NCBI GenBank assembly: GCA_018398765.1
Contig: JAHBMJ010000331.1
Span: 1 to 50,345, forward strand
Reading direction: 5' to 3'
Length of the DNA: 50,345 bases
Source of the DNA: Chromera velia
Lineage: Eukaryota > Sar > Chromeraceae
A program made the position numbers and the translations under genes. Below the pieces are notes generated by a model, which searched no databases, was not told the DNA's origin, and was given only the letters and a program-made list of their open reading frames with translations. Of the stretch, positions 2,159 through 45,652 are shown in pieces; the stretch's first letter is position 1; each line of letters opens with the position of its first letter.

Positions 2159-2227
2159 GCAACACTTGCATAACAAGCATTGTGCTGAACTTTTCTTTCC
2201 GCCTTTCAGTTCTCTTGCGCTTCCAAG

Positions 2228-13178: not shown

Positions 13179-13250
<72 letters not shown>

Positions 13251-13910
13251 GTTTCGAAAAGAAAAAGAGGGAAAAAGGAAAAACAGAAGTCGTATTCGTC
13301 TGTCTGTACTGTCTGTCCGAAAAGAAAAGACGATATAGTCTGTCTGTGTGTACATGAGGAAGGGGAGGAAGAAGAAGAAACATGTAGTTTATCTGTGCAT
13401 GTTTTGTATGTGCGTATGTGTGTATAAATATGTGTGTGCAGGATGTGAAGAAGGCTCTGGTCGACGCAGGTGTGGACCCCGAGAACATTTTCGAGACGGA
13501 CGTGCCAGGGTCCTGGGAGCTTCCCATGGTCACCAAGTACTTAGCCTTTTCGCAGAAATTTGACGGCGTGATTCCGATCGGATGCCTCGTCAAGGGAGAG
13601 ACCTACCACTTCGAATACATCGCAGGAGCAGCCAGCGACGCCCTCATGCAGGTATGGATGGTAACTGTCGGTGGGCATGATTGCATGGTTCTCTCTTGTC
13701 CGTAGCACATCTGTGCGTGGAGGCAAGTTAACTGCCAGGATGAAAGGAAGGGCAAAGGCACTATGAAATCGCACGTCTCCTTCCCCCCCCTCTTTCCCAG
13801 CGTCCCGTCTCTTTCCTGCCTCCCAGTGTGGCCTTCCCTCCTCTCACCAGTCACTGCCTTCCTTCTTCGTCTGGACCCTCATGCAGGGAGGAATGCCCAC
13901 CCCTCCCTCT

Positions 13911-17234: not shown

Positions 17235-20200
17235 ATGTCATCTCCTTCCGAAGCGGGAAGGGAGGAGCGTCCCGAGGAAGTGGAAGGTCTGACTGAATCG
17301 CAGGGTCATTCATTCGAGGTAGAAGACGGGATGGATGGGCACAGTGCAGGTGGAGATGCAGAAATGGAGGCACGAGATGACGTCCCCGGAAAAGACTCAG
17401 TCTGCGAGTCGGAGACGGGAGACGAGACAGCGAGAAAAGAGGAGGCACAAGTTTTGCAAGCGCCAGAGAACCAAGAGGCACCCAATCAGAATGCAGAGCA
17501 AGAGTGTCAACAAGCTCCAGCAGAGATGCCTGTGCCGACCCCTCAGATTCAAATCCGAACTCTTGTCATTGCACCCCGTCTCTGTGAGGGAGAGGAAGCG
17601 TATGTCTTCTTTGGCCCTCCTGTGGGAGACTGGGAGACGGAGGGCATGGTCATTCTGGAGAAGGAGACGGCAGAGCAGAACCAAGGGAGCGGGATGGAGA
17701 CGTTCTCTTGGCGGATTTCCTCTCCCGTCTCTGAAGTTCACGATAAGGCAGTTCCGTACAAGTACGTGAAGGTGCGCAAGGAGGGCGAAGAAAAGATTTA
17801 CGAGAGTCTGGGCACTGCCATTTCAAACCGTGTGCTCAGGTTTGAAAATGCAGACAGAACCCGGGAACATGAGATTTTGGATCCACCAATCGTGTGGTCT
17901 GACACGGACACCAAGGCGGAAGAGGGGCCTGTTCAGGTACATAGATTCTCTCTCGCTTTGCTTTCCTGAACTTGATTACCTCTTTCATTGAGGATTTTTA
18001 CCTCGCCATCCGTCTTCTTTTCTATTGTCATTTTTAGATCTCTTTCGATTTCACCGTCGACACTGTACCGGTGGGCCCAGAAGTGCCCCCCCTTGCTTCC
18101 GTACCTCTTTGCATGCAGCTGCAAATGTGCTCAAACACCCCCCTCCGTTCAACGCCATGTCTGCAGCTTCTCTGCCGTCTCTTCGGACTTCCCGATGAGG
18201 CCGCGGGAAGAGACGCAGGGGTGCGTTTGGCACTTCACGGTTGTGCAGTGATGTCACTTGCTCAGCGGTCGAGCAGCCGTCTCGTTCAGTCTGAGGAGAA
18301 GCTTTTGACCATTTCGGCAGAATCGAAATTTCTCGACGGCTTCATCGCTTTTCTGCGAAATCGGAGGGAGTCTGAACAGAACTCGGCATTTCCCTCTCAA
18401 GATTTGAGAAATTGTAAAGTTATGCTTTCCGGCATCGCGCAGAAGATCATTCTGGAGATTGAGCAGCGTGCGGTCTTCAGAGCGGCCGTCTCGTTTCCGT
18501 ACAGTCCAGGGTGCACTCCTTCATCTCCAGATTCGCCTGTGGGGTGTCTTCTGGGTCGTCTCTATGGACTTCTGCTCCTCGGGGAAAGGAAAATATTTTC
18601 TTCATTGAACGTGGAGTCCCTCCTGACCCTGTCGAGATCTCTTTGTCCATTTGCCGCAGTACGCCAAAAGGGTCTCTTAGGAGAGGGGGGAGAGAAAGAG
18701 AAAGAGGGCGCTGCAGTTCTCTTCCTCGAGACCCTCCAGGCAGAACTTGGTGAGAGGTTTGCGTTCATGCAGAGACAGGAACTGAAAAAAATGGTCGAAA
18801 CTCTCATATTAAAAGTGCATACTACGTCAAACCAGCCCGGCATCTCTGTCACTCTCTCGCAATTTACTCTGCGGCGACTCCTCCTTCGCACCACTTCCGA
18901 GGAGGGAGAAGACTTGAAGGCATGCCAACGCGTCGTTCAGGCCTCTGTGCAATCGTCACGAGGGGTCCGTGGGTGGGAGGGGGCTGGGGGCTCATATGGG
19001 AAAGCGGGTGACTTTCTGGGATGGCTGGGTGTGACTGGTGTGTGGACAGGGGAGGACGTTCGTCGATTCTGCTGTGGCGTGGGGTCCGCGGGGGCAAGCG
19101 TTGACTGGACGGGCGTAGTCGAGACTGTCAGAGGAGACTCTGTGTCACTGCGGTAAGTGGGTACGTCGCTGGATGGGTGGGGATAATCTTGTAAACACTT
19201 CGCGATGTGCGCGGGTTCATTTGTGGCGCCGCTTTAGAAGCCATCTCTTCTCCACTAGCAGCATTGCATAACCTTCGATCTTCTGTTCTTCTTTTCACCT
19301 TGTCTTCGCGGAAACCATTCCGTCTAGGAATGACCATACGATGTCTCCTCATGCGCTCTGCCCGCGTCTCTGCCTGCATTCAATTTGCATGCAGTTCTGT
19401 GGTCGCGTATCTCCTGTACTGCCGTCTCGCTTTCCCTCACCTCTGGGAGGGAGACGCCGGGGCAAGGCTGCATGCGGGTCTGTGCGTGGGTCTTCAGTCA
19501 GCAGGACCGGCAGCAGCGATATCGGCAGTGTGCGTGGCGATGCAGTTGAAGAATAAGGATGAGGTCCCGGCAGGCAGTTTTCCGGAGTTGTTGACGACGT
19601 GCTTGCGGGTACTTGATGGGTCCGTGTCCGCTGCCCTGTACAACAGGGAAGGAGAGAGGGGGGCGGAGGCGGTAGCCGAAGGTCTCCAGGTTGTTAGTGA
19701 TTGTGTGGCGGGACTGCTTCAGGTCGGTGACGATGATGAAGCGACGACATGGCACATCTGCCAGTATGCAGTCTGTTTGAAGGTGTAGGGGCTCTGGACA
19801 ATTAAAGTATGCTCTGTCTGTCTGTCTCTGTTCCTGCCTGTCTGCATGAAATTGCCTTTCGATTCCCTTTCTGGCTTCTCTTTCGGTTCAATTATCTCTC
19901 TGCCTTCCATTTCTCTCTCTAGCTTTTTTTTCTTCGTTCTTCGGTACGGTTCTTTTAATTCTCTCTCTGCCTTCCATTTCGGTCTTAATTCTTTTCGAGT
20001 GTCGGAGATTCATGCATGGTGTCACCAGGTGAGCCCCTTCTCCTTTGTCCTCCCTTCTCTTCTTCCCCGAACAGAATAGAAACCGGATCAAGGAAACACA
20101 TGTACGCATGCTTCTCTACTGTGCTCAATTGCAGAAGGAGTTCTCAGGTTTGTGGAAACGCGCATGCGATGTTCCCAAACCTGTGCTGCCGGGGTTGAGC

Positions 20201-21360
20201 TCGACAGCCGCTGTAGCATCCTGTCGTCAGGCACTAGAGACGGCGTTGTCGTTGTGCCGTTGTGTGGTGGCTGCTGTTGAGATGCTCCGGGGGTGCGGGT
20301 ATGCGGGGGGGCGTGCTGCAGATTCTCTGGCAGAAAGGGTCGTTGCTGAGTTGAAGAGCACTCTCGGGAAGAGGAAAGGAGGGGATGAGGGGGGGTTGGC
20401 CTCAATGAGCATGCTGAGGATCTCGGTGAACAGAGACAAGGCATTTCGGTATACCACTCTGTGCGCGACTCTCGTGCCTTTACAGTCAGACGGAGGAAAG
20501 GAAGCTGCAGACTTGACAAGGATCCGAAGTGCAGTGGGGCAGAGGTTTGCTGGCGAGCTGAGGGCTCTCCAGAACGAAGAAGCTCGGGTTCATGTTTTCG
20601 AACACGTACTCTCAGAGAGGGAGAAGGGGGACGTTTTCGCTTCCGAGGGAGCGAAGGACATTGTGGAAGCAGCAGAACAGGTGACGATGGAGACCCTTGA
20701 CTCTGCTTTGAGTACTGCAGGGGACACGGGGAACGAGAACATTCTGCAGAAGTTACTGGGCGGCTCTCTTCTCCAGAGGCTTGCAGGCGTCCTCTCAACG
20801 GTCATCGTGAGTCGAAAGATCAATTGACTAATTAGTTCTCACATCTTACTGGTATCTGACTCGATCGATCGTTGTCTCTCTGGGAGGAAGGGAGGGAGGG
20901 CCCCTCTCTTCTCGTCTCTTCTCTTCTCTTCTCCTCTTTCTCTTTTCCTCTCTTCTCTTCTCTTCTCTTCTCTTCTAGCGTCTGTTGTTCCCCTCTCATG
21001 TCCATCATGAGGCAGGCCAGTCGAGATAAAAAAGAGAGAAGGAGTGATCCTCTCCCCCCCTCCCCCCTCGTTTGAGTCTGCAGGAAAAGGGGTGGCCCCG
21101 AGAGGTTGCGTCTGCTGTCCTCCGTGGGACTACGGAGGGTCTGAGTGACGTTGTGCTGAAGCACGTGCTCTGGTGGCGCCCCCTCGGCGTCCTCTTCCGG
21201 TTCCTTCTCAACGACCAGAGCGAGAAAGGCCTCTCGAGTCTGCGCCAAAAGGTGGGGGGATGGGGGGTTTGGTTTGGGGGAGGTATTGTAAGGAGAAGAG
21301 GTTGATTGTGCAAACCTCCTTGAGTCCTGCTGGTGAGGCGCCACTCGGGCAAGAGAGATT

Positions 21361-21417
<57 letters not shown>

Positions 21418-27400: not shown

Positions 27401-30400
27401 CATGTGCCCGTGTGTCTGAACGTCGTCTGTCAGGTCTCGCAGCTGGCGGTCAGGTTGTGAACCTCTTTCCTCGGGTCGTCTGCAGAAGTCCCAGAGAGGT
27501 TCTGGAGGACCTGCGGGGGGGGAGGTCTCTGTCGTCTTCGTCTCTCGATTTGGGTTTCGATGGGGAAACTCTGAAGAATCGGGCACAGCTGCCTTGCCAG
27601 TACTTGTCCAGGTCGGCCAATCAGTGAAGCAACCAGTTGTTTAGTGAGATTGTCAGTAAAAAAGAAAAAGAGAAAGAAAGGGGAAGGAATGGATGAATGA
27701 AGGAGGAATTCCATCAAAGCGAGAAATTTGAAGAGCATTGGAGTAGGAGGGAAATCGACAGGCGAGAGACACACATAGTCTAGTTACTTGTTGACTGTCA
27801 GTCAGAAATCCAAAGGAGAATTTTGAGGTGCACGTCCTGTTGAATGCTCTTCATCGCTGCGTGCATGCATGCGTCGAATTCAGATACGAGGCCGGAGAGA
27901 ATCTGGACTACTATTCCTTCGAGCCCGAGCAGAGCTGGACTTCAGAAGCTGAACTGACCGCGTACGAGTGTCTGACGGTCCTCACGAACAACTGCAGCCT
28001 TTGCGACCCGACGTGGCGTGACCTTTCGAACTTCCTCTCTTTCCTCTACGAGCAGTTGAGCCGGTGCGAGGGGAATGTGTTCTGTCATGTCCCGGAAGAT
28101 CTGCCTGGCTTCAAGCAGTTTGTGGTTAGACACTTGATTCAGATGTCCAGGGACTTCACGATTGCATCTCTGACCGTGAATGACGATGCATTGGGGCCGT
28201 CACTCCGTCGGAAGGCAGAGGGAAGAGAAGAAGACGACGAAGACGAAGAGATGGTTGCTGCGGGGCAGCCTCGTCAGTCTCGTCCACCACTGCTGCAGGA
28301 GATGAGGAGAAACTGGGAGAGCTCTCCCCACCCTTACCTTTTCTTTAACTCGGACGGCACTTCTTTCTCTTTCCTTGGCATGACGGTTTCGAAGGCAGGC
28401 CACCTGAAGGACCAGCACGGAAATGTCGTGGAGGATCGCATCATGACCCCCGAACTGCGGAGGGCGCTGGATGACCAGTGTATTCAAGGAGTGATCAACC
28501 CTTTTTCGGAATCGTGTCGATTCAATGCCCTCGACAAGGCACAAAAAATTGAGGTCAGCCGGGGACATCAACTATTCGCCTTCAGCGTACGAAAGCACGA
28601 CGATAGCTTTTTGTTGATGCGCATGTATGCATTGGGATTTTTTTCGCAATTGTTTGCCAGCTTCACACCAGCTCTCTTATCAAACAATTCACATCGATTT
28701 GAGCTAGGGCTGTCAAGGAAATTTTTCTGACCGGCTTGACTACAGCAACGGACCGCATAGACTGCATGCGTCAAGTGATTTCAGTTGGATTGTAGCACCG
28801 AGGAGGAGCATTTGCTTGATCGAGATTGGCTTCAAAGCGCAAAGCTTCGTATGGCTTAACGTTTCTGATTTCTCCTGCATGCATGCGGTACATTGATTAT
28901 TTCCTTTCATGCAGTTCCTGGGGCGTGTGATGGGTCTTGACTACCCTCACGATCCTGACGAGAGATTCGAACTGACGGAGGACAACGCACAGAAGATGAT
29001 GGCTGTGGAGATGCGGAGACGGTGTGGGATCCCGGCAGTGACCATGGGAGAGACTGGATGTGGAAAGACTGCACTCCTCACCTACAGATCCGGTTCGTGC
29101 ACGGCTTGAGTTGGCGCTGAATTATTCAGCATAAGAAGAAACGAAACGGGTGTAGGAATGCAGGAATGCAAGGGCATTCATGCACGCTGTGAGAAGTCAG
29201 GGGTGCAAGGACGCACAGTACGGATTTAGGCGAGTGTCTGATCAAGGGGTTCAATGGTGCAGTCGTGCAGAATTATTCAGAAAGAGCAGCGGGAAACAGG
29301 AGAGAGGGATCGATGCGTGACAGTTGCATGTTTCTCTTCATTTGACAGGGGGTCTCTCTCCGGGGAAAGCGGCAGCGGGCTCAACCAATTGATATGTATG
29401 TATGTATGTAAACAAAAACGTGTCACTTCTACGCTCTCGACACATGACATTGTGTGCAGCGTTAAAGATGCCGCCTGGAGTGAGCAGCCTGGGGGACAGG
29501 GAGGCGCCGCCGAACTTGATCACTTTGAGAATCCATGGAGGCACAAAGGTTGATGACGTACGTCTTGTTGTTGAAATTGCTGAACAGCGGGCGGAGGAGA
29601 ACTGGAGGGAGTGGCAGATAGAGGAGACGACCGTGTTCTTTGATGAGGTCAGTGATCGAGGTGTTGTGAGGGGGTGGATCTCCATCGGCAGCTATGGATC
29701 GAGGGAAGCCTGGCTAAAGAACAAGTAATTGCGTGTCGGACAGACGAACCATGCAGGCGTTTGTGTGTTTCCAAATTGGCCTCGGAATGTATTCCGTTTC
29801 TTTTGGCTTGCCTGTCTGCCTGCCTGCCTGCCTGCCTGCCTTCAGGTGAACGCTTCTGACGAGGCTGTGGTTGGACTCGTGAAGGAAATTCTCTGCGACG
29901 GGACAGTCGACGGCCGTCCGATCAGGGGGGGTGTCTGCGAGTGGCAGTACAGGGACGGAGGGAGGAGTGCAGCCTGTGGTGGGGGGAATCGGATCCCGGG
30001 GTCTCTTCTTTTCTTTGTGGCCGCGTGCAATCCCTACAGACGGCACTCTGAGGGGATGATCCGGAGACTCGAGGAGGCAGGGCTCGGGTTCAACAAACCC
30101 CAAGCAGAGACAGAGCGACTCGGGGACACACCGCTGAGACACGTCAGTGAATGGGAGGGTGGAGAATTTAGAAGGGGGGAAATTCTGCATGCCGTGCATG
30201 CCTATGCGCAGGTGAATAGAGGGCGAAAGACAATTAAGGAAGTGGAAAGAAAAGCCTTGATTTAAGCTTCTGTGAAAAAGCAAGCTCAACTCTTTTCGGC
30301 AGAGCTCTCGAATCAGCGGAGCCCTTTTCAAATCCCTCTTTGCAAAAAACAAATACTGTGTGGAACAAGGTCACGGGCCGCATCCATGTGATTGACAGGT

Positions 30401-33400
30401 TGCGGCAAAACTCGTACGGGGTGTCATTCATTGTGTCTCCACTTTGTCCCCCTATAAAATTGGACATGTATGATGGCCATATGCAGTTGGTCTATCGCGT
30501 TTGCGCGCTGCCTCCAAGCTTGGCGTCTCTGGTGTGGGACTTCGGGTCCCTCTCTGAGGAGGCCGAGAGGAAGTACGTAGAGAAGATGGCCTTCTCGAGA
30601 CTCAAGGGGGTCGAGGGAGGATCATCATCGAGGGCGGCATCCACACTCGTCGCAACCACACTCACGTGCTGTCAGGCGTTCATGCGAGCACGGCCAGACG
30701 AGTGTGCGTTCGTGTCTCTCCGAAATGTAGAGAGGGCGCTTTCCGGAATCCGTTGGTTCTCTGGCAAGCTCGGCCTCTTGGACGAGAGCGTCGGTGAGGA
30801 AAGGGGAGGTACAGCTCCTGATGGTTTAGCGACACGCGGCCATGCAGTCACCCCGGTAGCGACCGCAGCAGCAGCAGCTGTGGGGGGACGGAGTGCCGCA
30901 GCTACTCCTCGGAAAGTGCCTTCGTCCTCTTTCTCCACGAGCATGACCCGGCTTCATGATGTTGATGTCGAGGAGGGAAGAAAGGGGTCGGAGGCATCGG
31001 ACGACGTTGAGATGGTGGAGGAAGAGTCGGTTGACGAAATGGAAGAGGAGAGGTTCGTTGGGGGGGGCCTCTCGAGACAGTCTCTAAGGGGTTCGGTGGC
31101 CTCGTCAAGTTCCGGTCTTCTTTCTGAAGGATTTCTCAGATCCTTGCTGCTGTCCGTAGGGGCCTTCTACTGCACAAGCCTGGCCGACGCAGAAAGCAGG
31201 GAGCGCTTTTCCGCAGAGGTCGCCAAGGCCCTGCGCTCGTGTGGCTGTGCTCAGGTGGAAGACTCTGCAGTCGTTGACGAACTAGAGAGAGCTCAGCACG
31301 CAATGTTTGCGGAGACTCGAGACGGATTGGAGGGGAAAGACATTGCAGCAAACGCAGCACTTCTGGAAAGTCAGTGAGTAGTTCTACTCTCAGCAAGTGC
31401 ATGGGGACTGGAGCTATAAGCCGGGCATGCGCTCTATTCATGATCTCTGCTCTGACAATTTTCAAGACCGAAGGAGACCATGCTGTACTGCTGCTGACGG
31501 CTTTTTGAACAATGCGTTGTCCTCCACCTTTTCTTGTTGAAAATTTGCCTTGTAGTATTTATTTGTCGCCGTCTTCTTGACTCCTGTGTGTCTGTGCATG
31601 CATGCAGACTTGTTCATGATGGTAGTGTGTGCTGACATGCGCATCCCCCTTTTCGTCATCGGTCGGCCTGGTTCCTCAAAGTCTTTGGCGAAGGCCCTCC
31701 TTTCCCAGGCGATGAAGGGTCCCGCTCTCTCCGTGTCACCCCTGTTCAGATCCCTCAAAGAGGCCAAGCTCGTGTCTTATCAGTGTTCACCCCTGTCCAC
31801 TGCCGAAGGAATCATTGGCGTGTTCGACCGAGCTGCAAAGCTGCAGAAGGGCAAAGACCTCGAGAACGTCGTCGGCATTGCAGTGCTGGATGAAGTTGCT
31901 CTGGCTGAAGAGTGTCCTCAGAAGCCCTTAAAGCCTCTGCATGGACTCCTTGACGATGGCGTCGCGTCTGGGGGTGCGGGGCGGGGGGGACAGTCTGAAG
32001 TCTGGAGGAAGGTGGCCACGATTGCGATTTCCAACTGGGCGGTCGATCCGGCCAAGACCAACAGAGGTGCTCTCCTTGTGAGGCCGGTCCCTTCGAAGAA
32101 AGACCTGGTCGCCACAGCCCGAAAAATCGCTAGAGCAGGGGGCGAGGTTTTCCCGAATATGTTCAAAGTTTTGGAGAGGGACCTGAAGGGAGCCACAGAG
32201 GCTTTCGACGAGTTGTGCCGTCTGCAGCATCGAGAGTGTTATGGCCTGAGGGACTTCTGGGCTTTGATCAAAATGATGAAGGAGATAGCAAGACGAAGAA
32301 TGGGGGAGCTGACGAGGACCGATGTTGCTTATGCTGTGCGCCGCAATTTTGGGGGCGGGTTGTTGGAGGCAGAGACGGATCCGCTGACCATCTTTGGTAA
32401 GCACATGAAGTGCAGAGCGGAGTTGGAGGACAACGATTGGGCTGAATTGAGAGAACCCGCTGTGGTGCGTCTGATGAGGGATAACCTCAGAGGCTCTCAT
32501 TCCCCCCACATCCCTTGGTCGTCATCCTCGGTGTTGGGGGAGGGAGGAGAGGACACAACTGCATCGGGTGATGCTCCAGAGGATTGCAGGTCAGAGGAAA
32601 AGACTAGCTTTCTTTCTGTCTTTCTGCCGCTCTCTTAATTGTGCTCATTCCCCCGTACGTCTGCATGAAATCCGCCTCTACGGCCTCCGAGTCGGACCTT
32701 GCATCCTGAGCTTGTGAGTGTTTTGCAAAAGTTTAGCAACCAGAGAGAAGTGCTATGGACCGGGGCTCCGTAACTGTCCTGTGCGTGTCTGCATGGGCAT
32801 TTATTCTGTATGCATATGCGGGTGTGGACGTGTTTGATCGCACACGTACGTGTTGGCGGCTTGAAGTGACTGCAGAGACTGCACTGAGGAAGGAAGTGTT
32901 TTCCTGAGTCTTACTTAATTGTCATTGGTACCATTCAGTCCTCCTTCTGCACACCTCGCTATATGCAGGTACCTCCTCGTAATAACAGAGAATTACTCAG
33001 CGTTGGATATTTTGAAGGAGAGCGTTCTTGCTGCATGGGGGGGAAATGGAAGTGGTGCGTCACCGTCTGGCCTCCTCAGCTCTTCCTCGTCTTCCTCTGC
33101 TGCTGGTGGTGGTGGTGGTGGTGAGATTGACTTCAAGGAGAAGGAGGGGAAACTATCATCTCTGAGTCAGCCTCCTGAGTCCTCCTCCGAGGTCGTTATT
33201 CTCTTCGGGTCCTCATTTCCCGGAGACCTCGAATACTCCACCGTCTGCAGAATGGTTGGTCAGCCAGCTGAGTGAGCTTGGAATTAGGGAATGGCAGGCA
33301 TGCAACTTCTTTCTTTAAAGGCCTTCCTGAGGATGGTCCAGTGCATTCATTGAATTCTGTATGAAAATGGATGCCTTCAACCCTTCATTTGGATCAAATG

Positions 33401-36400
33401 CAGGTCAACCGAGTGAAGGACTGCATGGAGACGGGGAAAACGCTGGTTCTTCTGAATTTAGAGACTCTCTACGAATCGCTCTACGATGCCCTCAACCAAT
33501 ACTTCACTACATTTGCAGGCCAGAGGTCAGCCGCTTGAAAGGGAAGAAGAAAGACGTACTCTGAAGGCTGCATGGGGGAAGCATGCACCTGTGTGTGTGT
33601 GTGAGGGAAAGCTGAGAGGGAAGATGCAGATCTTTACGTCCCTGCAGTTCCATCCGACGGGAGGGACCTTTTCGACAACACTGAAGATGTACGTCTGTCT
33701 CGATTGACTATCTTCTCATTCCTCTGTCTGTCTGTCTGTCTGTCTGTCTGTGTGCCTGCCTTTAATTCCCGACAGATACGTCGATTTGGGTCTCGGGAGT
33801 CAACGAGTGAAGTGTCGGGTCCACCGTTCCTTCCGTCTCCTGGTGGTGGCAGAGGCCTCCCGTGTGGCCGCTTACCCGATCCCCCTGCTTGGCCGTTTGG
33901 AGAAACACAGACTCACTGTGAGAGACCTCCTAGCGAGGCCCGCTCTGGCCCAAACCCTGCAGATAGCATCGCAGTGGGCGCGTGACTTTTCGAAACTTTC
34001 CATCAGACACCGAGATGTCCAGATGCGCATGCGGCCTTCAGTTGCAAATTCAATCGAACCGACACGCGCGTTCGCTTCATATTCTGAAGACACGCTGGCG
34101 GCGATTGTCCTGGCAGAAGCGCGGGATCTTGAAGAGTCCGAAGGAGACGATTTCAAATCTACGGAGGGTCTGTCTTTCGAGGAGAAACTCTTTCTGGCTG
34201 TGAAGAGACGGCTTCTTGACACAGCGCTTCCCGATGCAGTTCTGCGTCTCCCCTTTTCTTGTCTTGCTTTTCAGCCAGAGAAGGAGGATGTGGGGTCCCT
34301 ACAGGCTTCGTATTTCGACGACCCTTCTCATGGTAGTCTGGCGGGGGTTATTTGGCGTCTGTTGAATGAGAGAAAGGAGAGGGAACGGAGCCAGACCCCC
34401 TTTCTTTGTTCTTCTTCAAAGAGCGTCGACTTCTCTTTGATCACCACGAGGTCCCGTTTGGTCGTGCAGGAGGATTTAGAATCTGCGTTTACGTCTGCTC
34501 TTTCTCTCTCTTCTCCTTCTGGCGAGAGGTTGGCACGGTCAGAGTGTACCGGGCGGATCGTGGAGGTCTCCCAGTTCTCTGAGGAGACACAATTCCGACA
34601 ACACCTGACGAAGCAGGCGCTGCCGTCGCTGCTGGAACAAAATGAGAACCAGAACAGCAACTCGAAGGATCGGGATGCGTTCCTTCTCGTGCAATGCGAC
34701 GCCGCAGGGCGGGGGGCTTCCCATCTGTTCGCGTGTGTGCAGACAGTTCTGGAGGAGACGACAAGGGAGGCACTCGACCAAAAGGAGAACCTGAAGAGGG
34801 AAGGAGGGACCTGCCATCTGCACGTGCTTCTCATTGCCCGTCTCTCCCCCCCTGTGCTGGAAGAAGACGGCGAGTCGGAGGTGAGTGGGGAAAGTTCAAC
34901 TTCCACCTGCGGTCTGATGACTGCCATAGGAAGGGGGGGAGTCTGGAGGAGGGCGATCCATGTCGACTTCCTCACCCCCGACAGCTCCCCTCAGATGTTA
35001 CCGCCCCTGACACAACTTCGGACTCTCTCCATGGCAGAGACGTGGCAGGCTGCAGACCTATCACAGCAACGGTCTCTTCTCAGATCCTGTGCGCATGAGG
35101 CGTGCACCCGCATGGCCCCGGGTGCTCCCTCGGCATCGGCACAGAGGGGAGCGGCAGGGCGTCTGCGTTTAGAGATTCTCCTGGAGATTACAGAGGAAGA
35201 AGAAGGAGAAGGCGAGAGAGCCCGACAGGGACTCGGAGCGATTGGCAGAATCGATTGGCAAAGTCGTCTGCTGAGACTGCTCTGTCAGGCGGTGGGGACT
35301 AGACTCATCAGACGGGAGGAGAACGTAACGCTCGCAAGTCCGTCCGTCCAGCTCGATCGACTGATTGTCGGAATTTTGATTTGCAAATTAAGTGCTTCAA
35401 CCCTGTTGTCATTTGTCATTTGATCAATAAAAATGTCCTTCCTTCACCATCGGTTGCATGACAGTATATGAATCACCTTTCCAGCGACAGGTTTCTTTGG
35501 TGACACAAACACAGGCAGAAAGAAAGAAAGCGATTGTGAATGGGGCCCTGCTAAGACGACGCCAAAAACTTTTTTTCCCGTGCGTTGCTTTTGTTTCTGT
35601 ACTTTTCTTGTAAAGGGACCATGCACCAATAGGAAGCGTGTCTTCTCTCGTCTCTGTCTGTCTGTCTGTCTGTCACCTTCTCGTGTCGTTCTCTGTCTGC
35701 AGCTGGGAGACGGAGCCAATGGGTTTCTCTGGCAGCTCTGTCGTCCCTTCAGGGGGTCGGCGGCAGGTTTTCTTCTTTTTCTTCTTCTGGTGTTCATCTG
35801 CAGCTGCAAAGAGCGGAGCGGTGCTTCTCTGAGGCGATGCTGCAGGCTGTGCGGACAGAGATGGCACCGCAGCTGCGGGACGTGGTTGAGGTCCTCGACA
35901 GACAAGCAAACATGAGGCTGGCAGGGAGGGGGATGATGCATTTTGAGTTGTCAGTCAAAACAAACATGACCTTTACGAAGACAGAAGCGAACAGTGGTGC
36001 ATGTGAAGCATTTAATTCTCCTCACTCACCTCATCCGTGCTCGTGAATTCTTTCTCCGACGGTACATGTCCTCTTCTTCCATTCTTCTTTTGACTACTTT
36101 CGCTCGAGGTCAACGCGCGCCGCAATTGATGGACACACAACCCTTCCTCCTTTCCTTCCCTTTTCCCTTTCTGTTTGCCTGAGTGGTGCCTGTCTGCAGA
36201 GGGGCTCAGAGGGAAATTGCCAAAGGACTTCCCCGGTGGTCAACGGAGGTCTGGTTCCGTCTTGCTGCTGTGGAGTTGCAAGACTGGCGACAAGGAGGGG
36301 GGGAGGCGGAGGCGGTCCAACTCGTCTCATCTGTCCCTGTCTCGTTTGTGCACTTTCCCTTTGCATGGAGAGTCGCGGAGGTTTTGGACACTCTCACAGC

Positions 36401-39400
36401 GGAGGCGGGGGGCAGTGGCGGACTGCCTCTACAGAGACGGGCATTGCTTCTTGGTCAGAGCCCCCTTGGTTCTCTTTTGAGTCGTGTTCTTCTTTCACCT
36501 GAAGACCTGGAGGAGGGGTGCAAAATTCTCGGGAGAGATCTGGTCTTGCTTCGTGTCAGCGAGATTTCTGGAGTGCCCAACGAGACGGAAGTCCTCGAGG
36601 CGGCTGTGGCAGAGGTCTTTGAGGGTGCAGACAGAAGGCTGACAGGGGGGGGAGAGGAGATGCAGAGTATGACGGATCGCCTTGAGAGCCCTCCTTTTGT
36701 CGAGAACTTCTGTGCTCGACTAGTCGCTGCCTACGAAGAACTGGTGGTGGGCCGAGTCGCGCAGGGGCTCCGGCATGCTGCTATCCTTCTCAAGGCAGCC
36801 CACGCTGTGCTCCCATCTTTCCTGCTTGTCCAGGAGGATGAGGCGGGCGCACGTGGGGAGGGAAGGGAGATTTCCCAACGTGTCCCCGGTAGTTTTGGTC
36901 TGTTGGTTGCGACGTGCATCGTTCGTCGGCTGCAGAGCACATTTGAAGGAGAGAGAAGTCTGAAGAGCCTTACAGAGGTCGCGGAGTGGGTAGTTTCGTT
37001 GGAGAATCCGGTTGGGGCCCTTCTTGCACATTTAGGAGGGGAGAAGGGGAGTACCTCCTTTAGAGTGCGTGCTCTGTCGGCAGGTTGGGAGTCTGTGCGA
37101 GTCTGCGCTCTTCTTGCTCTTAGGGCAGCTCCTGAGATGGGCGCATGTCTGTTCAGGAATTTTCCTGAAGAGAGAGGCGGCCTCAGGAGAACGAGACTGG
37201 AAAGGCAAAAACAGTGTGCAAAAATTGAAGAGGCGGTAGCAGCAGGCATGAGAAGACTCATTCATGAACTGCCAACCAAAGTCCAAAATTCAGAAGCAGC
37301 GGCAGCAGCGACTGTGGCGTCACCAGATGACGTTGCCCTCCTGCGTCCGTTTTCTCTCTCCGTCTCTGTAGTGGAGGGAGTTGAAGGGGTTCTGAACGAC
37401 GCAACACACTCAATTGAAGAGTCAGTGTATCAGACAGAGTGACCGTCCTCTTCAGTTCTTCCCATCTTTTGTCTTCGATTCTTTGAATCCCCCGGAGTGG
37501 AACGTCTTCTTACAGACGGTCGTCTCTCTCCTTTTTCTTTCACTTTGCATGACTCGTGTATACCTCGTAGAGTAGAGAGAGGAAGTGAATAAAGCGATTG
37601 ATGCATGGCACCCGCTCCCCTCCCTGCATGAATTGACCCTCTCGTGATGAGGGGATGACAATGTGTTTCGTTCCCTCTCCTCTCCTGCATGGATTATGCA
37701 GAGCCGCTTTCCAAGGAGGACACGACGCGGCACTGCCAGCCGCCTGCGACAGGTGCGGAGCCATGACTCGTGCGTTTGTGAAGTTGCAGCGCTGCAGTCA
37801 CTCTGTATGCCTCGACTGTCTCCAAGGGGAAGAGGCCGAGAGTGCTCCGCGGAATGTGTGTGGAGTGGGGGGGTGCGGAGAGCGTCTGAGCCCCCTCCAG
37901 CGGGAGGAGGTGAAGAGAGGTCTCGAGCGGCGTCAGAAAGTTGTGGCGGCATGGCGTGCGGTTGCTACCGACTTCTTCACGGACTTTCTCTCAACGTCAG
38001 TGAGAGAGAATTCCATCCAGAGTCTGTCAGATGACAAGGAATGAAGGTTTATTTTATTGTCGGCCTAGCTGTCTTGGACAATAAATTTGGCATGCAGGGA
38101 GTGAACTGTCCGTCCCCACAAACAACCGCTATCCCTCCCGTTATTTCTCGTTCATTGCCCGAAGCTCTCCTTCTTTCTGTGCATTTATGTTGAACATCGT
38201 TTCTCTGCAGGTTCATTTTCACCCACGAGGGGCCGTCAGGAGACGACGCGGAAGCGCTCAGGGCTCGCAACGCAACAAGAGAGGAAGTAGAGGCGAGGAG
38301 ACATCAGAGACTGCATGCGCTCCTCCGGCATCTCCTGAGACACGTCGGAAGGCAGGAGGGGGGAGCTGCTCGGGGTGCAGACGTGCATGCTGAGGTCTTC
38401 TGCGCCCTTGAGTCATCCCCTGTTGTGAGGTCAGCATGCAGAGAGAGTTGCTTCCTGGGGGGGTGATCGATCGATCGATGTTTGGTTTTTGTCTGCCGAC
38501 TGCATCTTGTAGCTTTGCAGCCCGTCTTTCTTTCATTAGCAGTATTTGTCTGTAGAGCTGTGGGCTTTTGTTTCCCTCATTTCTTTCTTTCTTCCTTGCT
38601 TCCCCCTTCCCTCCCTCTGCCTCATTTTTTCTTTTGTTTTCTGTTCTTGCTTCCTTTCTATCTTTGTGTCGATCTATTTAGTGCCTGCCTGCCTGTCGTC
38701 TGTTCGATCGGTCGATTCGTCTCGTCACGTCTGTCTTTCACCCTGATGATCTCTCCCTCTGTGCTGTGCTGCATGTGCATGCAGATCCTTCCTTCTGCAA
38801 CTTGTTCTCCGGCATGGACCCCAACAGGATTCTGACCTGATTCCCCTTCTGGGCTTCTGCCTTCAAAGCGCGGAGGCCCACATAGGCTCGGAGGGGGGAG
38901 GAGAGAACTGCAGCAGGGAAAGAGGGGGGCAGTCGCTGCGGCCTCCAGTTGCACTCCGACGTTTGTTTGTGGAATGTCTGGAAGGAAGAATCGAGGAGAG
39001 CGTTCAGCAGTCCTCCATTTTCTCTTCTCATTCTGGTTTTTCTGAGGGGGCTCACCTTGACGAGGTTTCTCTCTTGAAGGTCGCGAAGGTTCGAGAGGCT
39101 CTAGACCGGCTGCAGAGGGGGGAGGCTCAGGGGGGGGGCGGGGGGTCAAGTGCAGAGAGGGAAGCGTCGGGGCTTCTGAACACTGCATTGGTTCGTTTCT
39201 GCCTCGGGGTCACTGCAGAACTTCTCTGTGATCGGTTTCCTGAAGGCCCGCATTCTGCTGACGGTGGTGCGGGTGTGTTGTCTGAAGCAGAGAAGAAGCT
39301 CTTGGAAGGGGTGCGGGCTGTGGTTTCTGGGAGACGTCTTCTCTTGGGTGTTTCCCCCGGTTGGGCTCTTGTGTTTCTGATGCGTCTTCTGTGCAGACAG

Positions 39401-42400
39401 AAGAGTGTTGTATGGTGGAGGCAACTGAGTGCGCATCCCTCGCTGAAGTGGATTGCCCCTCAGTGGGCAGATGCACAGAGCGGGCAGGGTGGGGGAGATG
39501 AAGCGGACCTGTTTCTGCTCGAAGGAGAGCCCCAAGATCCAAAAGCTGAGCGGACAAAGACGATCGGGCAGAAGTACGGGACGATTCGGGATGCCCTCTC
39601 AGAAGCTCTCATGAGAGGACAAGCATCTGTGCTCACTGATGCACTCACTGCCTCTGACGGTTTACAGGGCACGGAAGGAAACGCTGCCGCAGGCCTACTA
39701 AGAGCCCCTGCGTCGACACAGCTGCATGAGCAGGAGAAGAGGTTCACGCTCGGTCTTGCAGCTTGTTGGAATGCCGTGAGGACCCTTCGAAGCCTTCAGG
39801 AAGGGGCAGCAGACGGGCAGGAGAGACGTCCTCATGCTCAGGGAGAGGGGAGGGGGAGGCGTGAGGTCTGGCAGTCAGTCGAGGCACTGCTCTCGGGAGG
39901 AATGGAGGGAAGTCAGGGTGGTGTGGGGGGGATGCATTTGGCATCTGCTGCAGGCAGTGGGAACATGGACGACGTAGAAAAAGGGGGGGCGGGTGCTTTT
40001 GATGCCCAAGTTCCGTCTTCCTCTTCCTCTAGAAGACAGCGCCGTCGTGAGTCGGCGTTTCACGGAAGGGACGGGGAGAGCGAAGAGACTTTTACACCGG
40101 TACTTCCGGGCCGACTCTCGCCCCTATCCCACTTGATAGAATTCTCAGAGAGGCAGAACACAGTCAGAGTGCACGAGCGGAGACAGGCCATGGGCCCGGT
40201 CCTCCACCTGGGCTGTCTCCTGGCGACTCTGCCTGATGATCGTGAGGGGACGAGGGGGAGTGGAGGGGGGGGTAGAGGGCGGTCACAGGTTTTGTTGCAC
40301 CTCGCTTCCACCCTGAGAAGATTGTTCGAGAATCCAGGGACTGCGCGGCAGCTCTTTCTTCCGGGAATGGAGGCAGACGTCTCGGGGGTGGCGTTGGACA
40401 GAGGGGTTGTGAGCGGCTCCACGCAGTCAGTCAGTCAGTCAGTCAGTCAGTCAGCGCTCAGTCTAGCTTCCTAATCGGCCTCCCATGAGCACTTTTCATA
40501 TCCCCTTTTATCCGATACAGTTTGCAAACGAAATCTCTTTGCTGAGAATGCACGCGTTTTTGCATGCAGCGTCTTGTGCTGAGGCTCTTGCCTGATGCTC
40601 CCTGCCTCCTCATACACCGAATGGACCTGACGCTCCCTGCTTGCATGCATGCATGAATGCAGAGTGTGTGCGTGTCCGAACACTAAATGCGGTGAACCGT
40701 ACCACGTCGGCGACTGTGGACAACTAAACGGCACCGGAAAATGCTCGGTCGGTCGGTAGGTAGGTCATCAGAGAGCAAAAAATGTCAATCGGGCCTACTG
40801 CCGGGAAGAAGTACCGTGGGTCGTGAGAAACAGATGCGATGCTGATCTTCTCTTCAAAAGTTGGGCTTCATACTCCCTATAAAGTGTTGCATGGCAAAAG
40901 GAAGGAAGGAAGGAAATAATTCTGAATGTGGCTGCTTGATGATCTGCTCCCCCCTGTCTGCCTGCAGCATTGCGGAGGGCCGATAGGAAGGGGCACTCGT
41001 TCTCAGGTCTACCAGCGTGCGGCCAGACACGACTCGAAAGGGCATACCTGCGGGGGGGGCGTGGCAGCACAAGGGGAAGTGGCCAGTGGGAGTGCCCAGA
41101 GAGCTCTGCCGGCGTCCGTCTGCCTCCGGAGGCTTGTCACTCACTGTGTCCTGGCTGCTGCGGCGGCACGGCACTGGCAGGGCGCGGCGTCTGCAGTGAA
41201 CCCCCTTCCCGGCACTACCCCTCTGAGGGCTCCCCTTCAGTCTGAGGGCGAGACTGTTGGGTTCTTTTTGGATCACGTGAACGCAGATGCTCAGAGAATC
41301 GCAACGAGTCTCCGTCTGCCTCCTGACGGGGCCTTCGTGCTCCTGCATTCCGTCATAGGGGAGTGGGCATCGTGTGTGCTTGGAGGGAGACTCGGCTGTC
41401 GATCAGATTCTGGTCTGAGGGAGGGGGACGCGAATTTGAACGGCAACCGGGTGGGTCTGGAGACAGAGACCGGAAGGGAAGCTTGGGATCGCGTGTTCAT
41501 GGACGCGATAGGAGGAAGGGCCTTGGGGGGTGCACAGGGGAGGGTGGAGGGATCCCGGAAAGTCCTTCTGGCCGACGGCCGTTTGACTGGAAACGTGATT
41601 TTGAGGGTTGTCTTGGAACAATCCGATCCTCCCTTCTCGTCCTCTTCCTCTGGAGCGTCCTCTAGTTCTCGGGGGAGACAGTACGAGGCAGAGGAAGGAG
41701 ACGGTACGCTGTGGAGGTATCGGCAGGCTACGGGCGTGGAGACGGCAGCAGCTGAGGTGGAGACGGCAGCAGACCGGTGGAAGTCTTCTCAGGAACAGTC
41801 ACGAGGGGGGGGCGCAAGAGGGAGGGGGAGAAACGGAAGCAGCCACCGAGTGATTCACTTGGACGGCGACCCTTCCCAAAGTGCGGCTGAAGGTGGAAGA
41901 CGAAACGGATTTCATCTGGCGCCCCTTCAACTGGCTTTTGCGAATATGCATTCTTTCCGCCTACGTCAGTCAGTTCACTTCTTGGAGCTTAGGAAGGGGG
42001 AAAGATGCTTCTTTGTCCCGTTGCATCTTCTTTCATTTCATTTGTTTACTGACTTATACAGTCTGGCTTTGGTTTGACCAGGCAGGGGAAGGAATGCGAG
42101 AGGGATCACGATACTTGGTCGATCGATCGATCGATCGATAGAATTGTCTCCGTCGCAGAAACAAGATATGCCGAAATTCCATCATGAATGGAAGTGTTCC
42201 TTCCTTCCCTCCTTCCTTCCTTGATGCTCCGTCTGTTCATTTGCTGCCGGTGGGTTTGCAGTGGGTTTGATGCCCTCCGTCCTACGGCTCGTCCGCTTCG
42301 TTAACGCGGCAGCTGAGAGGTCCGGTGCGAGACGTGATGAAAGTATGGTTGAGTGGATGGACATCGATTCAGAAGGCTCAGTTGAAAGAGAGCACAGAAG

Positions 42401-43508
42401 AAGTGCTGCAGCAGCAGCAGCATCAGTGAGGCTCTCTGTGAGGGAAGCGGCGTCGACCCGTCTCAGTGCACTTCTGGGGGATGCAGGGGCGCCGTTCAGC
42501 TCAGCTGAGAGTGCCTTGGAGGCGCATCGGTTGGTGAGGGATGTTGGGGCAGCTTTGTCTCTGGCGTGTTGGGGGTCCCCTCTTCGGCCCGGCGGGTTGA
42601 GGTCTCACCGGCTTTTCAGTTCCGGGGCCCTCCTGAAGGAGGGGGCGGTGGATGTTGCACTGGCGGCGCTGAGGGGGCACGGAGAGAGAGACGGGGCAGG
42701 TGATCTAGATCCGTTTGTGGGTTTCCTGATGCCTCGACGCAAGGGGCAGGGAGCAGTAGTCCTCTGGCTGCTTGACTACATGGCTGCTGTGCACAACAGG
42801 TGCGTCGGATGGACTCTCAGGATGAAGATGAGGGATCGAGAGAGCAGAAAGCAGAGAGAGACCTTTGTGACAAAAAAGGGCACAGTACATGCATGGATGT
42901 TTGACAGTAGTTATCAGTCGTTCAAATGTCAGGCCTGTAAGTGTCGAATGGACTGCATGTGATTTTGCTCTTTCATGAGTCTTCACATGATTGGCTCTCC
43001 GTATTTGGGGGTTGCCTTTTTCCCTTCTTTCTTGCTGCCAGTGGTGGGGCTTCTGCATTTTTTTGTCGTGTTGAGGATTCACTCAAACCTGAGGCTGAGA
43101 TGCGTGAACTTGCACTGCTCTCTCTCATGTGTGACTGTATGTCCATTCTGAATCAATCCACTCTGCTGATCTCTCTTCCCTGTTCATCTCTGCAGCTTTG
43201 TCGACGCCTACTCTGCCGTGGCAGCTCCTGCTGGGCTTTCGTCTGTGCCGGGTGCGGCAGGTCGAGGCCAAGGGAGGGCATCGGGGTCCTCTGCAGGGGG
43301 GCAGTGGGAGAGGGGGAGCTGTCTGGGTGTGCTGTCTTCAGGAAAGGGGCCCGGGGGCGGGCGACAGGAGGGTCATGGCGAGGGGCACTGCCTAGCACTA
43401 CTGGTTGCAAAATGCAGGGAGCACTCCGTGAAGGTGGGCGGGCATGTTGGCGTTCTTGCTTTCTCTTGTAGTCCCTGTCTGGCTCTATGGGTGTGTATCT
43501 CACCATGA

Positions 43509-43557
<49 letters not shown>

Positions 43558-45652
43558 TCTGTATGTATGTGTGTGTGTGTGTGTGTGTGGTGATCGGGAT
43601 GAGGGCTTTGATGATAGAGTGTCATTGGTGGCGCTATTGTCGCAACTTCTTTTTCCTGCAGAGTTTGTCGTTTTTCCCCTTCCTGTCCCCTTTTGAATCA
43701 CTTGCTCCTCAATTCGTGCCTTTCTGTACACGTGCGGTGCAGGTGGCCTCTGGAAGCGGTGGCACTGCATCGTCATCGTCTACCTCGGGTGGACGTCTTT
43801 CCGGGGTCTCCCTCTTTTCTGAGTCTGCCTTTGACCTCCTCTCTCTCCAGAGAGCAGTGCACGAGGGTCCTCTGAAAAACGGGAAGACGCCATCTCTCGA
43901 CAGGCGGGCTCTCGTGGAAGCATCAAGAGGGATCGCGTGTTCCTCCTCTTCCCTCTCAACACCGGTTGTGTCATCTTCATCGGCAGGTCTCCCTCCTTCA
44001 GTGTCCCTCTTCTATGAGTTCAAGGAGGACGCCCACGGACCTGCAGCTGCCACCGCGATCGAGGGGGCTCTTGAGAAGGCGGCGCGCGCTGTGCCTCAAA
44101 GAGCCCTGCCCTGGTGCCTTGTGTCCGCACTTCGTCGTGTCTGCGGGCTAAAGCGCGGAGTCCCCGCACAGGAACTTCTCCAGACTCTGCAGGTGCGTTC
44201 GATGGGCCGGCCCCCTCTTTTCCTTCCTTTAATTCCTCTGTTGCGTGCCTGCCTGTCAGGCTGCCGGACTCTCTTGCTACCTCAAAGGAATATTCGATGA
44301 GAGCATTTGTGCAGAGATCTTCAAATGAAGACAGTCATATGCACGTCGTTCTGATTCGGCATACTTTTTTTTTTTCTCTGTAATGGAGAGTGAGGAAGTC
44401 AGACATGATGCAGTCATAACGTTGGTAGGTGGTGCTGCGTGTCTTCCTTCCGAGCGCAGGCCAGACAGATAGTTCTTTCGTCCGATCGCTCCAGCCAAAT
44501 TGCAAGAATCACAAAGAGACCCGATCTCATCTCCTTGCCTCATTCCCTCCCTCACTCTCTCCTTGTTTCTTTCTTTCTATTAATCGTTCTCAATTGGCGT
44601 GCGTGCAGACGACCCTCCGACTCCTCCCGGCCCTCGGGGGTGACCCTAAGGAATCTCTCGTGTGTGCCCTTAGAAGACTCCAACTGCTCCGGCAGCCTCC
44701 CAGGGCTGCGAACACAGAGAGTGGTCAAGTTCGGTCGGGGATGAGGAGCAGCAGCAGTCAGACGGCGAGGCAGGACGACAAGAGGGAGAGCGGGAGACGG
44801 CAATTGGGGAGGGGACAGGTTGAGTCTGAAGGGGGTGCATCATCATGTGAATCTGCTTTGGAGGCTCTGGAATCTGCTCTGTCCCGTTCTCTTGTCGGAA
44901 GGCACAAAGACGGACCGCCAACGGCACCCGTCTCTCTCTGCCTCGGTCATGCAGGAGCACTAGCAAGTCTTTTGGATTTCGTCCTCTTCTGTGGAGCCTC
45001 CGACGGCGGTGTGGTAAGAGGGGCCACTGCGGCTGCGGCCGCTGGTTCCGACACGGTGAGCGGAGGTCGACAGTCGTCCCTTCGAGTGAGCGTGGATGTG
45101 CTGCCCGAAACCCTGGGAGAGCCACTGAAGGGTGGGGCCGAAGGGCGCCTTCGTGAAAGACTGATGAGAGAAAGCGAGGCGGTCCGTCTGACGGTCGCCT
45201 TCTCCCTCCATGAAGTAATCAGAAGAAGACTTTGGACGGCGGCGGAAGAGACAGAGTCGGTCCCTGCTGTGGTTGCGGGGAGGGTTCAGCAGGTTGATGG
45301 AGGAGAAGTTCAAGTAGAAGCGGAAGGGGAGGCAGAGCGAGATCCCTCGCTTGCTGGCGAGGTTAGTGCGTGGCTTGACGTGCGGGGGGGGCAAGAGGGT
45401 TTGTTTTTGTCTCCGGTCGTTGAGGAGGTGCGAGCTCGGCCTGGGGAGATGGAAGTTCAGAGGGTGCTTGCAGCTGGAGCAGTCGCCGGAATCTCTGGCC
45501 CTGACCCGTTGGTATCGGTACCAGGGTTGGGGGATGAGACTCTGTCGTCGGACTCCCGTGTAATCAAATTCTGGGAGTCCCTGCAGGATGACAGGGAGAT
45601 TCTTGTCAAGCATGCTGCGGGTGCTCTGAATGTTATCGTTTCACTGCTTTAG
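17235..45652 (+). CDS. RNF213: Giant RNF213 (mysterin)-like AAA+ ATPase / E3 ubiquitin ligase
   Basis: Exons: 17235-17936, 18038-19152, 19395-19782, 20075-20806, 21084-21251, 21539-21939, 22284-22668, 22875-22980, 23165-23803, 24194-25930, 26350-26439, 26636-27611, 27884-28553, 28915-29092, 29460-29647, 29846-30142, 30487-31369, 31608-32589, 32969-33254, 33404-33525, 33776-35337, 35703-35949, 36200-37438, 37702-38025, 38211-38429, 38785-40425, 40663-40747, 40968-41964, 42262-42799, 43196-43433, 43743-44192, 44609-45652. They total about 6,542 codons, with phase kept at all 31 junctions; human RNF213 has about 5,200. Domain order: CBM20-like (residues 104 to about 245), helical arm, degenerate AAA module (P-loop near 2284), AAA3 (2748), AAA4 (3236), RING (4712-4755), E3 shell, RZ finger (5430-5456), C-terminal domain. 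RNF213-specific signatures include MGETGCGKT, ILCDGTVDGRPI, RPGSSKSLAK, ISNWAVDPAKTNRG, YVDLGLGSQRVKCRVH, PIPLLGRLEKH and FLMPRRKGQG. The expected product is a cytosolic ATP-regulated ubiquitin ligase; substrates here are unknown. The least certain boundaries are introns 3, 7, 14, 21 and 23. Confidence 0.93.
17546..18100 (+). other. CBM20-like domain of the giant gene
   Basis: From about residue 104 the protein reads IQIRTLVIAPRLCEGEEAYV, then a GDW motif and VPYKYVKVRKEGEEKIYE, which resembles the starch/glycogen-binding CBM20 fold reported in the RNF213 N-terminal stalk. The PYKYV strand is the clearest anchor. The domain crosses intron 1 (17937-18037) into ISFDFTVDTVPVGPEVPP. Residues 1-103 before it are acidic and probably disordered. 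Glycan binding is inference. Confidence 0.6.
20915..20978 (+). repeat. Pyrimidine pentamer (TCTCT/CTCTT)n repeat in intron 4
   Basis: About 60 bp of TCTTC/CTCTT units end in TCTAG, forming an extended pyrimidine tract. The acceptor used in my model is further on, at 21081-21083. Confidence 0.85.
21361..21417 (+). repeat. (AC)n(AG)n microsatellite in intron 5
   Basis: A compound AC then AG tract of the same design as the one at 13911-13967 lies between the donor at 21252 and the acceptor at 21536-21538. Confidence 0.9.
26031..26054 (+). repeat. (GA)n microsatellite in intron 10
   Basis: Twelve GA units lie about 100 bp after the GTCAGT donor of exon 10. Confidence 0.9.
26636..28553 (+). other. 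Degenerate AAA module (AAA2-equivalent) of the giant gene
   Basis: Exon 12 carries a P-loop-like TSAAAGMGKSLLVLRRAEVL. The region where Walker B would be (VLHLVVGSECTVGVERLLF) has no aspartate-glutamate pair, so hydrolysis is unlikely. Exon 13 continues with the RNF213-specific YYSFEP and NNCSLCDPTWRDLSNF blocks, then YLFFNSDGTSFSFLG. Module numbering follows my recollection of the vertebrate protein. Confidence 0.75.
28915..30142 (+). other. Catalytic AAA3 module of the giant gene
   Basis: Exons 14-16 encode ELTEDNAQKMMAVEMRRRCG followed by Walker A GETGCGKT (about residue 2748), the LRIHGGT loop, Walker B VFFDEV at the exon 15 end, then the signature VKEILCDGTVDGRPI and sensor region AACNPYRRHSEG. 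All key ATPase residues of the family are present. The residue after GKT is Ala (GKTAL), where I recall Arg in vertebrates (GKTRL). Confidence 0.88.
31608..34000 (+). other. Catalytic AAA4 module of the giant gene
   Basis: Exon 18 encodes LFMMVVCADMRIPLFVIGRP and Walker A GRPGSSKS (about residue 3236), Walker B AVLDEVALAEECPQ (about 3310) and the sensor block ISNWAVDPAKTNRG. Exons 19-21 continue with YLLVITENYSALDIL, METGKTLVLLNLETLYESL, then YVDLGLGSQRVKCRVH and PIPLLGRLEKH. The ATPase site appears intact. A Ser/Gly-rich insert sits in exon 19. Confidence 0.9.
37745..37876 (+). other. RING finger of the giant gene
   Basis: Exon 24 encodes C-x2-C, 12 residues, C-x-H-x2-C-x2-C, 13 residues and C-x4-C, i.e. 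CDRC, QRCSHSVCLDC and NVCGVGGC. It sits where RNF213 carries its C3HC4 RING and is followed by the family-like AWRAVATDFFTDFLST. The last pair is spaced x4 instead of the usual x2. E2 recruitment is expected from the family, but RNF213 can ubiquitylate without its RING. Confidence 0.8.
40424..40455 (+). repeat. Tandem (CAGT)n array forming the exon 26 donor
   Basis: Seven CAGT units in a row give successive potential GTCAGT donors every 4 nt. The first one (exon end 40425) gives the phase needed to enter the RZ finger exon. Only every third site keeps the frame. Confidence 0.8.
40663..40990 (+). other. RZ finger of the giant gene, split by intron 27
   Basis: Exon 27 (85 nt) reads VCACPNTKCGEPYHVGDCGQ and then LNGTGKCS. 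Exon 28 starts HCGGPIGRGT, so the junction rebuilds a KC-x2-CGGPIG knuckle. This matches the RNF213/ZNFX1-type RZ zinc finger (CPN, then GxCGxxM, then C-x2-C-x3-IG). Vertebrate RNF213 has C-x3-H-x6-C at the first site. Here the His is absent and an extra Cys (residue 5435) with a three-residue insertion is present. In RNF213 this finger is needed for ubiquitylating bacterial LPS. Confidence 0.85.
42117..42139 (+). repeat. (GATC)n repeat in intron 28
   Basis: Five GATC units form a palindromic tract between the donor at 41965 and the acceptor at 42259-42261. Confidence 0.85.
42262..45652 (+). other. C-terminal domain of the giant gene
   Basis: Exons 29-32 encode LMPSVLRLVRFVNA, then DLDPFVGFLMPRRKGQG and LLDYMAAVHN, the hallmark block near the RNF213 C-terminus. 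Exon 31 has SLFYEFKEDAHGPAA and exon 32 LRLLPALGGDPKES. The protein stops at TAG 45650-45652 after NVIVSLL. Low-complexity Ala, Ser, Gly and Glu inserts separate the conserved blocks. Confidence 0.8.
43508..43590 (+). repeat. (GT)n(GA)n and (GT)n microsatellites in intron 30
   Basis: A GT tract runs into a GA tract (43511-43557) and is followed by TCTGTATGTATG and a second GT tract (43563-43590). All lie between the donor at 43434 and the acceptor at 43740-43742. Confidence 0.9.

Follow-up and report, generated by a model that had tools for sequence, protein, structure and literature searches.

Gene model and surroundings of the RNF213-type locus

The window, a whole contig of 50,345 nucleotides from a genome of 177,833,721 bases in 4,040 contigs, carries on its plus strand a long predicted gene of the RNF213 type (Table 1). 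Gene finding was performed with stop-to-stop frames and a purpose-built dynamic program for coding sequence and splicing. The curated model comprises 33 exons (20,145 nt) and encodes 6,714 amino acids with one terminal stop and no internal stops. When the gene finder was run without hints and bounded to positions 17200-46000, the same ATG and stop were chosen in all eight settings, with 30 to 48 exons and 6,657 to 6,723 amino acids. An earlier run with wider bounds gave identical ends in its first round and drifted after retraining; early models that had drifted to as many as 78 exons, with spurious tiny ones, were discarded. All 32 modelled introns are GT-AG, which the method largely enforced, and have lengths of 48 to 416 bases; in-frame read-through is possible for only one of them, the 48-base intron 22. 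The GC content at the three codon positions of the model was 0.647, 0.490, and 0.596, as compared with 0.478 in the introns. The borders of exons 3, 5-9, 11, 13, 14, and 22 are uncertain, and some exon borders were chosen with RNF213 as a guide. Since the minus strand here also has long open frames, open frames alone are weak proof, and the case for the predicted gene rests on homology instead. The preliminary description had joined 32 exons in phase into approximately 6,540 residues. The open in-phase chain was recovered and its extent was nearly right, while the present model has 33 exons and is approximately 175 residues longer.

The modelled introns share unusual, uniform splice signals: TGCAG closes 27 of the 32 acceptors, and the third base of the donor is C in 20 of 32 cases, often as GTCAGT. 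Elsewhere in the window, a lumazine synthase gene lies upstream (12766-13630, plus strand), whose first exon encodes a hydrophobic leader that by eye resembles plastid targeting; its match to DMRL_synthase (PF00885) was weak (E=0.072), and the core motif DVPGSWELP...GCLVKGETYHFEYIA is found at approximately 13505. The ORF at 2189-3859 (plus strand) ends in a MYND-finger match (PF01753, E=4.5e-4, 20.7 bits with the cut-off at 22.7), and an open frame of approximately 280 codons at 11327-12172 (minus strand) gave no Pfam match at E up to 0.5. Rfam gave no matches within the window.

Table 1. Predicted gene, recognised or candidate segments, and related segments on other contigs of the same genome
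Feature	Position	Strand	Evidence
RNF213-type gene	17235-45652	+	33-exon predicted model; ATG 17235, stop 45652
Exons 1-11	17235-17936, 18038-19152, 19395-19782, 20075-20806, 21084-21251, 21539-21939, 22284-22785, 22875-22990, 23130-23992, 24194-25975, 26350-26439	+	
Exons 12-22	26636-27611, 27806-28553, 28915-29092, 29460-29647, 29846-30142, 30487-31369, 31608-32589, 32969-33254, 33404-33525, 33776-35337, 35703-35755	+	
Exons 23-33	35804-35949, 36200-37420, 37702-37995, 38211-38429, 38785-40425, 40663-40747, 40968-41964, 42262-42799, 43196-43490, 43662-44192, 44609-45652	+	
CBM20-like stretch (doubtful)	17622..17810	+	Pfam CBM_20 E=0.058, 13.6 bits (cut-off 23.3)
AAA2-like segment	26992..27809	+	36.1 bits, domain E=9.8e-9 to RNF213; Walker A GMGKS, residue 2417
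AAA3 region, several exons	27906..30765	+	RNF213 match, 304 bits (domain E=1.4e-89); Walker A GETGCGKT at 29047, FFDEVN spanning the 29647/29846 junction, AACNPYR
AAA4	31608..32359	+	E=4e-61 to RNF213; Walker A GRPGSSKS at 31661, VLDEV, ISNWAVDPAKTNRG
Stretch after AAA4, three exons	33195..34283	+	Joined segment E=4.1e-49 to RNF213, both junctions crossed without a gap
AAA5/6-region fragment	36357..36551	+	-0.7 bits in RNF213 alignment; Smith-Waterman P=5.9e-5, fragment picked from that alignment
RING CDRC...CSHSVCLDC...CGVGGC, last pair C-x4-C	37745..37876	+	Pattern; -1.0 bits in RNF213 alignment; P=6.9e-5
RZ finger, first part	40663..40747	+	C5556, C5561, nucleophile C5570, C5579
RZ finger, second part	40968..41000	+	C5582; R5591 in the position of the general-base His
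E3-shell fragment, two exons	42702..43208	+	2.1 bits in RNF213 alignment; P=6.4e-6, fragment picked from that alignment
Last two exons, place of the C-terminal domain	43662..45652	+	Stable in 8/8 gene-finder settings; not recognised by sequence
RNF213-like AAA3/AAA4 segment	C1056:13744-18225		Same genome
RNF213-like AAA3/AAA4 segment	C2302:14955-9737	-	Same genome; two TAG in the matched frame
RNF213-like AAA3/AAA4 segment	C3877:51606-54471		Same genome

The AAA core matches RNF213

Segments of the predicted protein were searched against solved structures (177,635 distinct sequences), residues 235 to approximately 974 and approximately 3,191 to 3,360 lying outside these searches. The significant matches were to chains 9jw1, 8s24, 6tax, and 7oim, which we take to be mammalian RNF213. 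A segment of 1,477 residues spanning AAA2 and AAA3 matched RNF213 at E=2.9e-102, with the next other protein at E=0.18, and the next other protein for the AAA4 ORF was at E=0.7. Beyond AAA4, a single ORF matched RNF213 at E=2.8e-18 (next other, 0.42), and when the three exons were joined the next other match was at E=0.59. AAA3 and AAA4 have Walker A, Walker B, and sensor I motifs, AAA2 has an ATP-binding Walker A, and the motifs of all three align with their counterparts in RNF213. Identity to the mammalian RNF213 chain was 30% over 209 positions for AAA2, 43% over 324 for AAA3, and 45% over 259 for AAA4, the value for AAA4 being 48% in a second alignment. AAA1 gave no recognisable match in the RNF213 alignment of the 1,477-residue segment (-0.9 bits).

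Together with the E3/RZ segment described below, these segments had RNF213 chains as their only significant solved-structure matches, which bears out the earlier assignment of the gene to the RNF213 type. Judged from its sequence, the gene genuinely belongs to the RNF213 family, of which it is a divergent member.

The E3 side is collinear and far more divergent

The 1,805-residue segment holding the E3 module and the RZ finger matched RNF213 at E=4.6e-5, with the next other protein at E=1.4. Among the pieces of this match, the RZ region alone scored 16.8 bits (domain E=0.0074) and the three others scored -1.0 to 2.1 bits; all four are collinear with RNF213. When the mammalian fragments were aligned to the predicted protein, each mapped best to the same collinear place, with Gumbel P values of 5.9e-5 (AAA5/6), 6.9e-5 (RING and helix), 1.4e-6 (RZ), and 6.4e-6 (shell), which are optimistic because the fragments were selected for having aligned. 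In none of 500 shuffles was the score of any of the four fragments reached. The E3 side is far more divergent than the AAA side.

A RING is present within the E3 module by pattern and collinearity. On the plus strand of 17000-46000 the pattern matches only once, and the minus strand of the window has no match. The best Pfam RING model, zf-RING_5, stayed below its cut-off (E=0.0039, 17.6 bits against 27.9). No Pfam family exceeded its cut-off in 20 ORFs scanned singly (10 + 10), and NCBIfam gave nothing relevant for two proteins.

The RZ finger was missed by the contiguous pattern search and by the ORF-wise Pfam scan because an intron (40748-40967) splits it, and it was detected only once its two exon halves were joined. 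The joined halves matched PF20173 at E=4.6e-6 with 26.6 bits, 0.4 under the cut-off of 27. Run over the whole genome, the RZ profile had no match anywhere, the 14 control genomes included, and this search is therefore uninformative. The available text of PMC12075652 gives the mouse finger as C4451-x3-H4455-x6-C4462-x8-C4471-x2-C4474-x8-H4483, in which C4462 is the nucleophile, H4483 has been proposed as general base, and the remaining residues are the four zinc ligands; mutation of any zinc ligand abolished activity, and mutation of the general-base His lowered it. The finger predicted here reads C5556-x4-C5561-x8-C5570-x8-C5579-x2-C5582-x8-R5591. C5570 aligns with mouse C4462, so that an RZ finger with the nucleophile Cys is present; the three Cys ligands are likewise conserved, and from the nucleophile onward the spacing is x8-x2-x8, as in mouse. 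The general-base His and the full CHCC ligand set are absent: R5591 stands in place of the former, the ligand His aligns with E5563, and an inserted Cys, C5561, lies near the displaced ligand. The His and the CHCC set are a catalytic detail and not a defining feature of the RNF213 family. We infer that the finger may still fold on zinc via C5561 and still carry ubiquitin.

Both ends of the protein

The CBM20-like stretch near the N-terminus had no solved-structure matches, and its alignment-free AlphaFold2 model was strand-rich and unusable (pLDDT 42.3). No RNF213 match to solved structures was found for the arm (868 amino acids searched) or the C-terminal domain (655 amino acids searched). 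The preliminary description had reported the whole RNF213 order. Since CBM20, the arm, and the C-terminal domain are not recognisable by sequence, that description is supported only in part, namely for AAA2, AAA3, AAA4, the stretch after AAA4, the RING, the RZ finger, and the E3-shell piece, which do occur in order.

Host and relatives in the same genome

In the genome, the alveolin family (PF12314) had 11 matches above cut-off and the light-harvesting family (PF00504) had 58 exon-level matches. Among the 14 control genomes, Caulobacter was also positive for alveolin, so this family is not exclusive; a control Synechococcus was positive for the light-harvesting family. The two sets of matches taken together indicate that the host is probably a photosynthetic alveolate, in agreement with the plastid-bearing alveolate proposed from the window; the features fit the chromerid Chromera velia, which is the probable host.

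Three other contigs of the genome carry RNF213-like AAA3/AAA4 segments, which are 25-46% identical piecewise to the window protein. Their scores against the window protein and mammalian RNF213, respectively, were 74 and 75 bits for AAA4 of C2302, 72 and 64 bits for AAA4 of C3877, and 56 and 81 bits for the best AAA3 piece of C1056; the window protein itself scored 240 bits (AAA3) and 220 bits (AAA4) against mammalian RNF213. The three relatives are about equally far from both. These distances are compatible with a duplication before the lineages parted and also with transfer of the gene in the window. In a five-row tree, C1056 and C2302 grouped together (90% bootstrap), and the window protein and C3877 were set apart from the mammal, C1056, and C2302 (83%); this tree is suggestive only, having been built on a window-centred, window-biased alignment. 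Crude RZ and RING patterns revealed no convincing finger in the sequence parts examined of the three contigs. No relative was found in a viral contig collection with the AAA3 protein or a two-sequence AAA4 alignment as query, in a prokaryotic contig collection with the two-sequence AAA4 alignment, or in phages by tblastn. The other eukaryotic sequences compared were only mammalian RNF213 and the relatives from the same genome.

Discussion

In vertebrates, RNF213 acts as an antimicrobial ligase that attaches ubiquitin to invading microbes, and it is also known as the Moyamoya disease factor. Public protein databases already contain RNF213-like sequences from non-animal organisms, and this gene has probably been annotated automatically as well. 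RNF213 and Toxoplasma vacuoles are the subject of PMC9601232, as far as its available text goes. In the open literature, no paper on RNF213 in Chromera was found, nor, judging by title or start of abstract among the papers listed, any on RNF213 in protists. The present gene is a divergent member of this known family, and its catalytic finger carries a difference that can be tested.

The predicted protein and mammalian RNF213 share homology, domain order, and conserved features, namely AAA2-AAA4 with their ATPase motifs, the RING, the RZ nucleophile Cys, and the E3-shell fragment. They differ in length (approximately 6,700 amino acids in the algal model against approximately 5,200), in the low-complexity insertions of the algal protein, in the Arg and the displaced ligand His of its RZ finger, in the C-x4-C last pair of its RING, and in the arm, CTD, and CBM20, which go unrecognised by sequence in the algal protein. 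Based on these results, we consider it probable that the gene is an RNF213 family member in a photosynthetic alveolate and most likely encodes a giant ATP-responsive ubiquitin ligase. Its activity would proceed as described below. A dynein-like AAA core with intact AAA2-AAA4 motifs would control the E3 module, and Cys5570 of the RZ finger would take ubiquitin from E2 and hand it to the substrate. At the zinc site, the inserted Cys may replace the displaced ligand His, and another group may substitute for the general-base His. One transcript would give a working ATPase and ligase. In mouse, RNF213 is stimulated by ATP binding at AAA3/AAA4, according to the available text of PMC12075652.

Several points speak against the ligase reading: the arm and the CTD, the latter being the reported E2 docking site in mouse, are unrecognised; Arg occupies the general-base position, and the ligand His is out of place; each piece of the E3 side, taken singly, gives weak evidence; and some exon borders were set with RNF213 as a guide. 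We weighed an RNF213 homologue with a weakened or dead RZ ligase, in which the AAA machine is kept and the protein acts as a scaffold or a RING-only ligase. The two His changes would fit such a protein, as would the mouse mutants, which were inactive when any zinc ligand was changed and less active when the His was changed (PMC12075652, available text). However, the nucleophile and three Cys ligands are kept at their x8-x2-x8 spacing, an extra Cys lies near the missing ligand, and the Pfam profile for RZ comes almost to its cut-off, so that we regard a dead or weakened ligase as rather unlikely. More doubtful is the presence of two or more genes, an unrelated N-terminal gene of approximately exons 1-10 followed by an RNF213-like gene. 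Although exons 1-10 gave no significant RNF213 match (residues 235 to approximately 974 being outside the search), one frame runs without a stop throughout, no two neighbouring exons are more than 416 bases apart, and the doubtful CBM20-like stretch is placed as in human RNF213 (PMC11549300, available text). Another six-AAA protein, such as dynein heavy chain or Rea1/midasin, is scarcely credible: the layout of six AAA units in one chain is common to RNF213, dynein, and Rea1 (PMC7311170, available text) and dynein-related AAA_5 is the nearest AAA model, but AAA_5 is below its cut-off, no dynein or midasin chain was significant against the AAA4, AAA2-AAA3, or post-AAA4 segments, and a RING and an RZ finger come after the AAA core.

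ZNFX1 also has an RZ finger, with a Cys/His dyad (PMC12075652, available text). It is an RNA helicase, whereas in the algal protein the finger comes after an RNF213-type AAA core and a RING, and the dyad His is missing. A ZNFX1-type reading was rejected, the RZ finger lying behind the RNF213 AAA core and no helicase family being found in the ORFs scanned by Pfam.

As for function, a role of the putative ligase in the alga in immunity, such as surveillance of microbes inside the cell, or in ubiquitylation of lipid surfaces would be a guess extrapolated from vertebrates, and it may serve another purpose. The RZ catalytic dyad has lost one of its two residues, which weakens a direct transfer of the vertebrate mechanism. 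As for origin, we tentatively propose, without holding it to be the likelier case, that RNF213 is an old eukaryotic ubiquitin machine duplicated before the split of alveolates and animals, of which the alga has retained a near-canonical copy alongside three or more divergent relatives, the near-canonical copy working by an RZ chemistry with a Cys-only zinc site and no general-base His. If this is true, RNF213-type transthiolation neither started with animal immunity nor requires the animal Cys/His dyad.

With a copy whose AAA core is well conserved in a free-living photosynthetic alveolate, the origin and the non-immune functions of RNF213 would become testable outside animals. The algal copy provides a naturally varied RZ catalytic site, and so distant a sequence helps to separate essential from incidental residues. 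Since the alga is related to the apicomplexans, it also lends itself to asking whether ligases of this type disappeared during the transition to parasitism.
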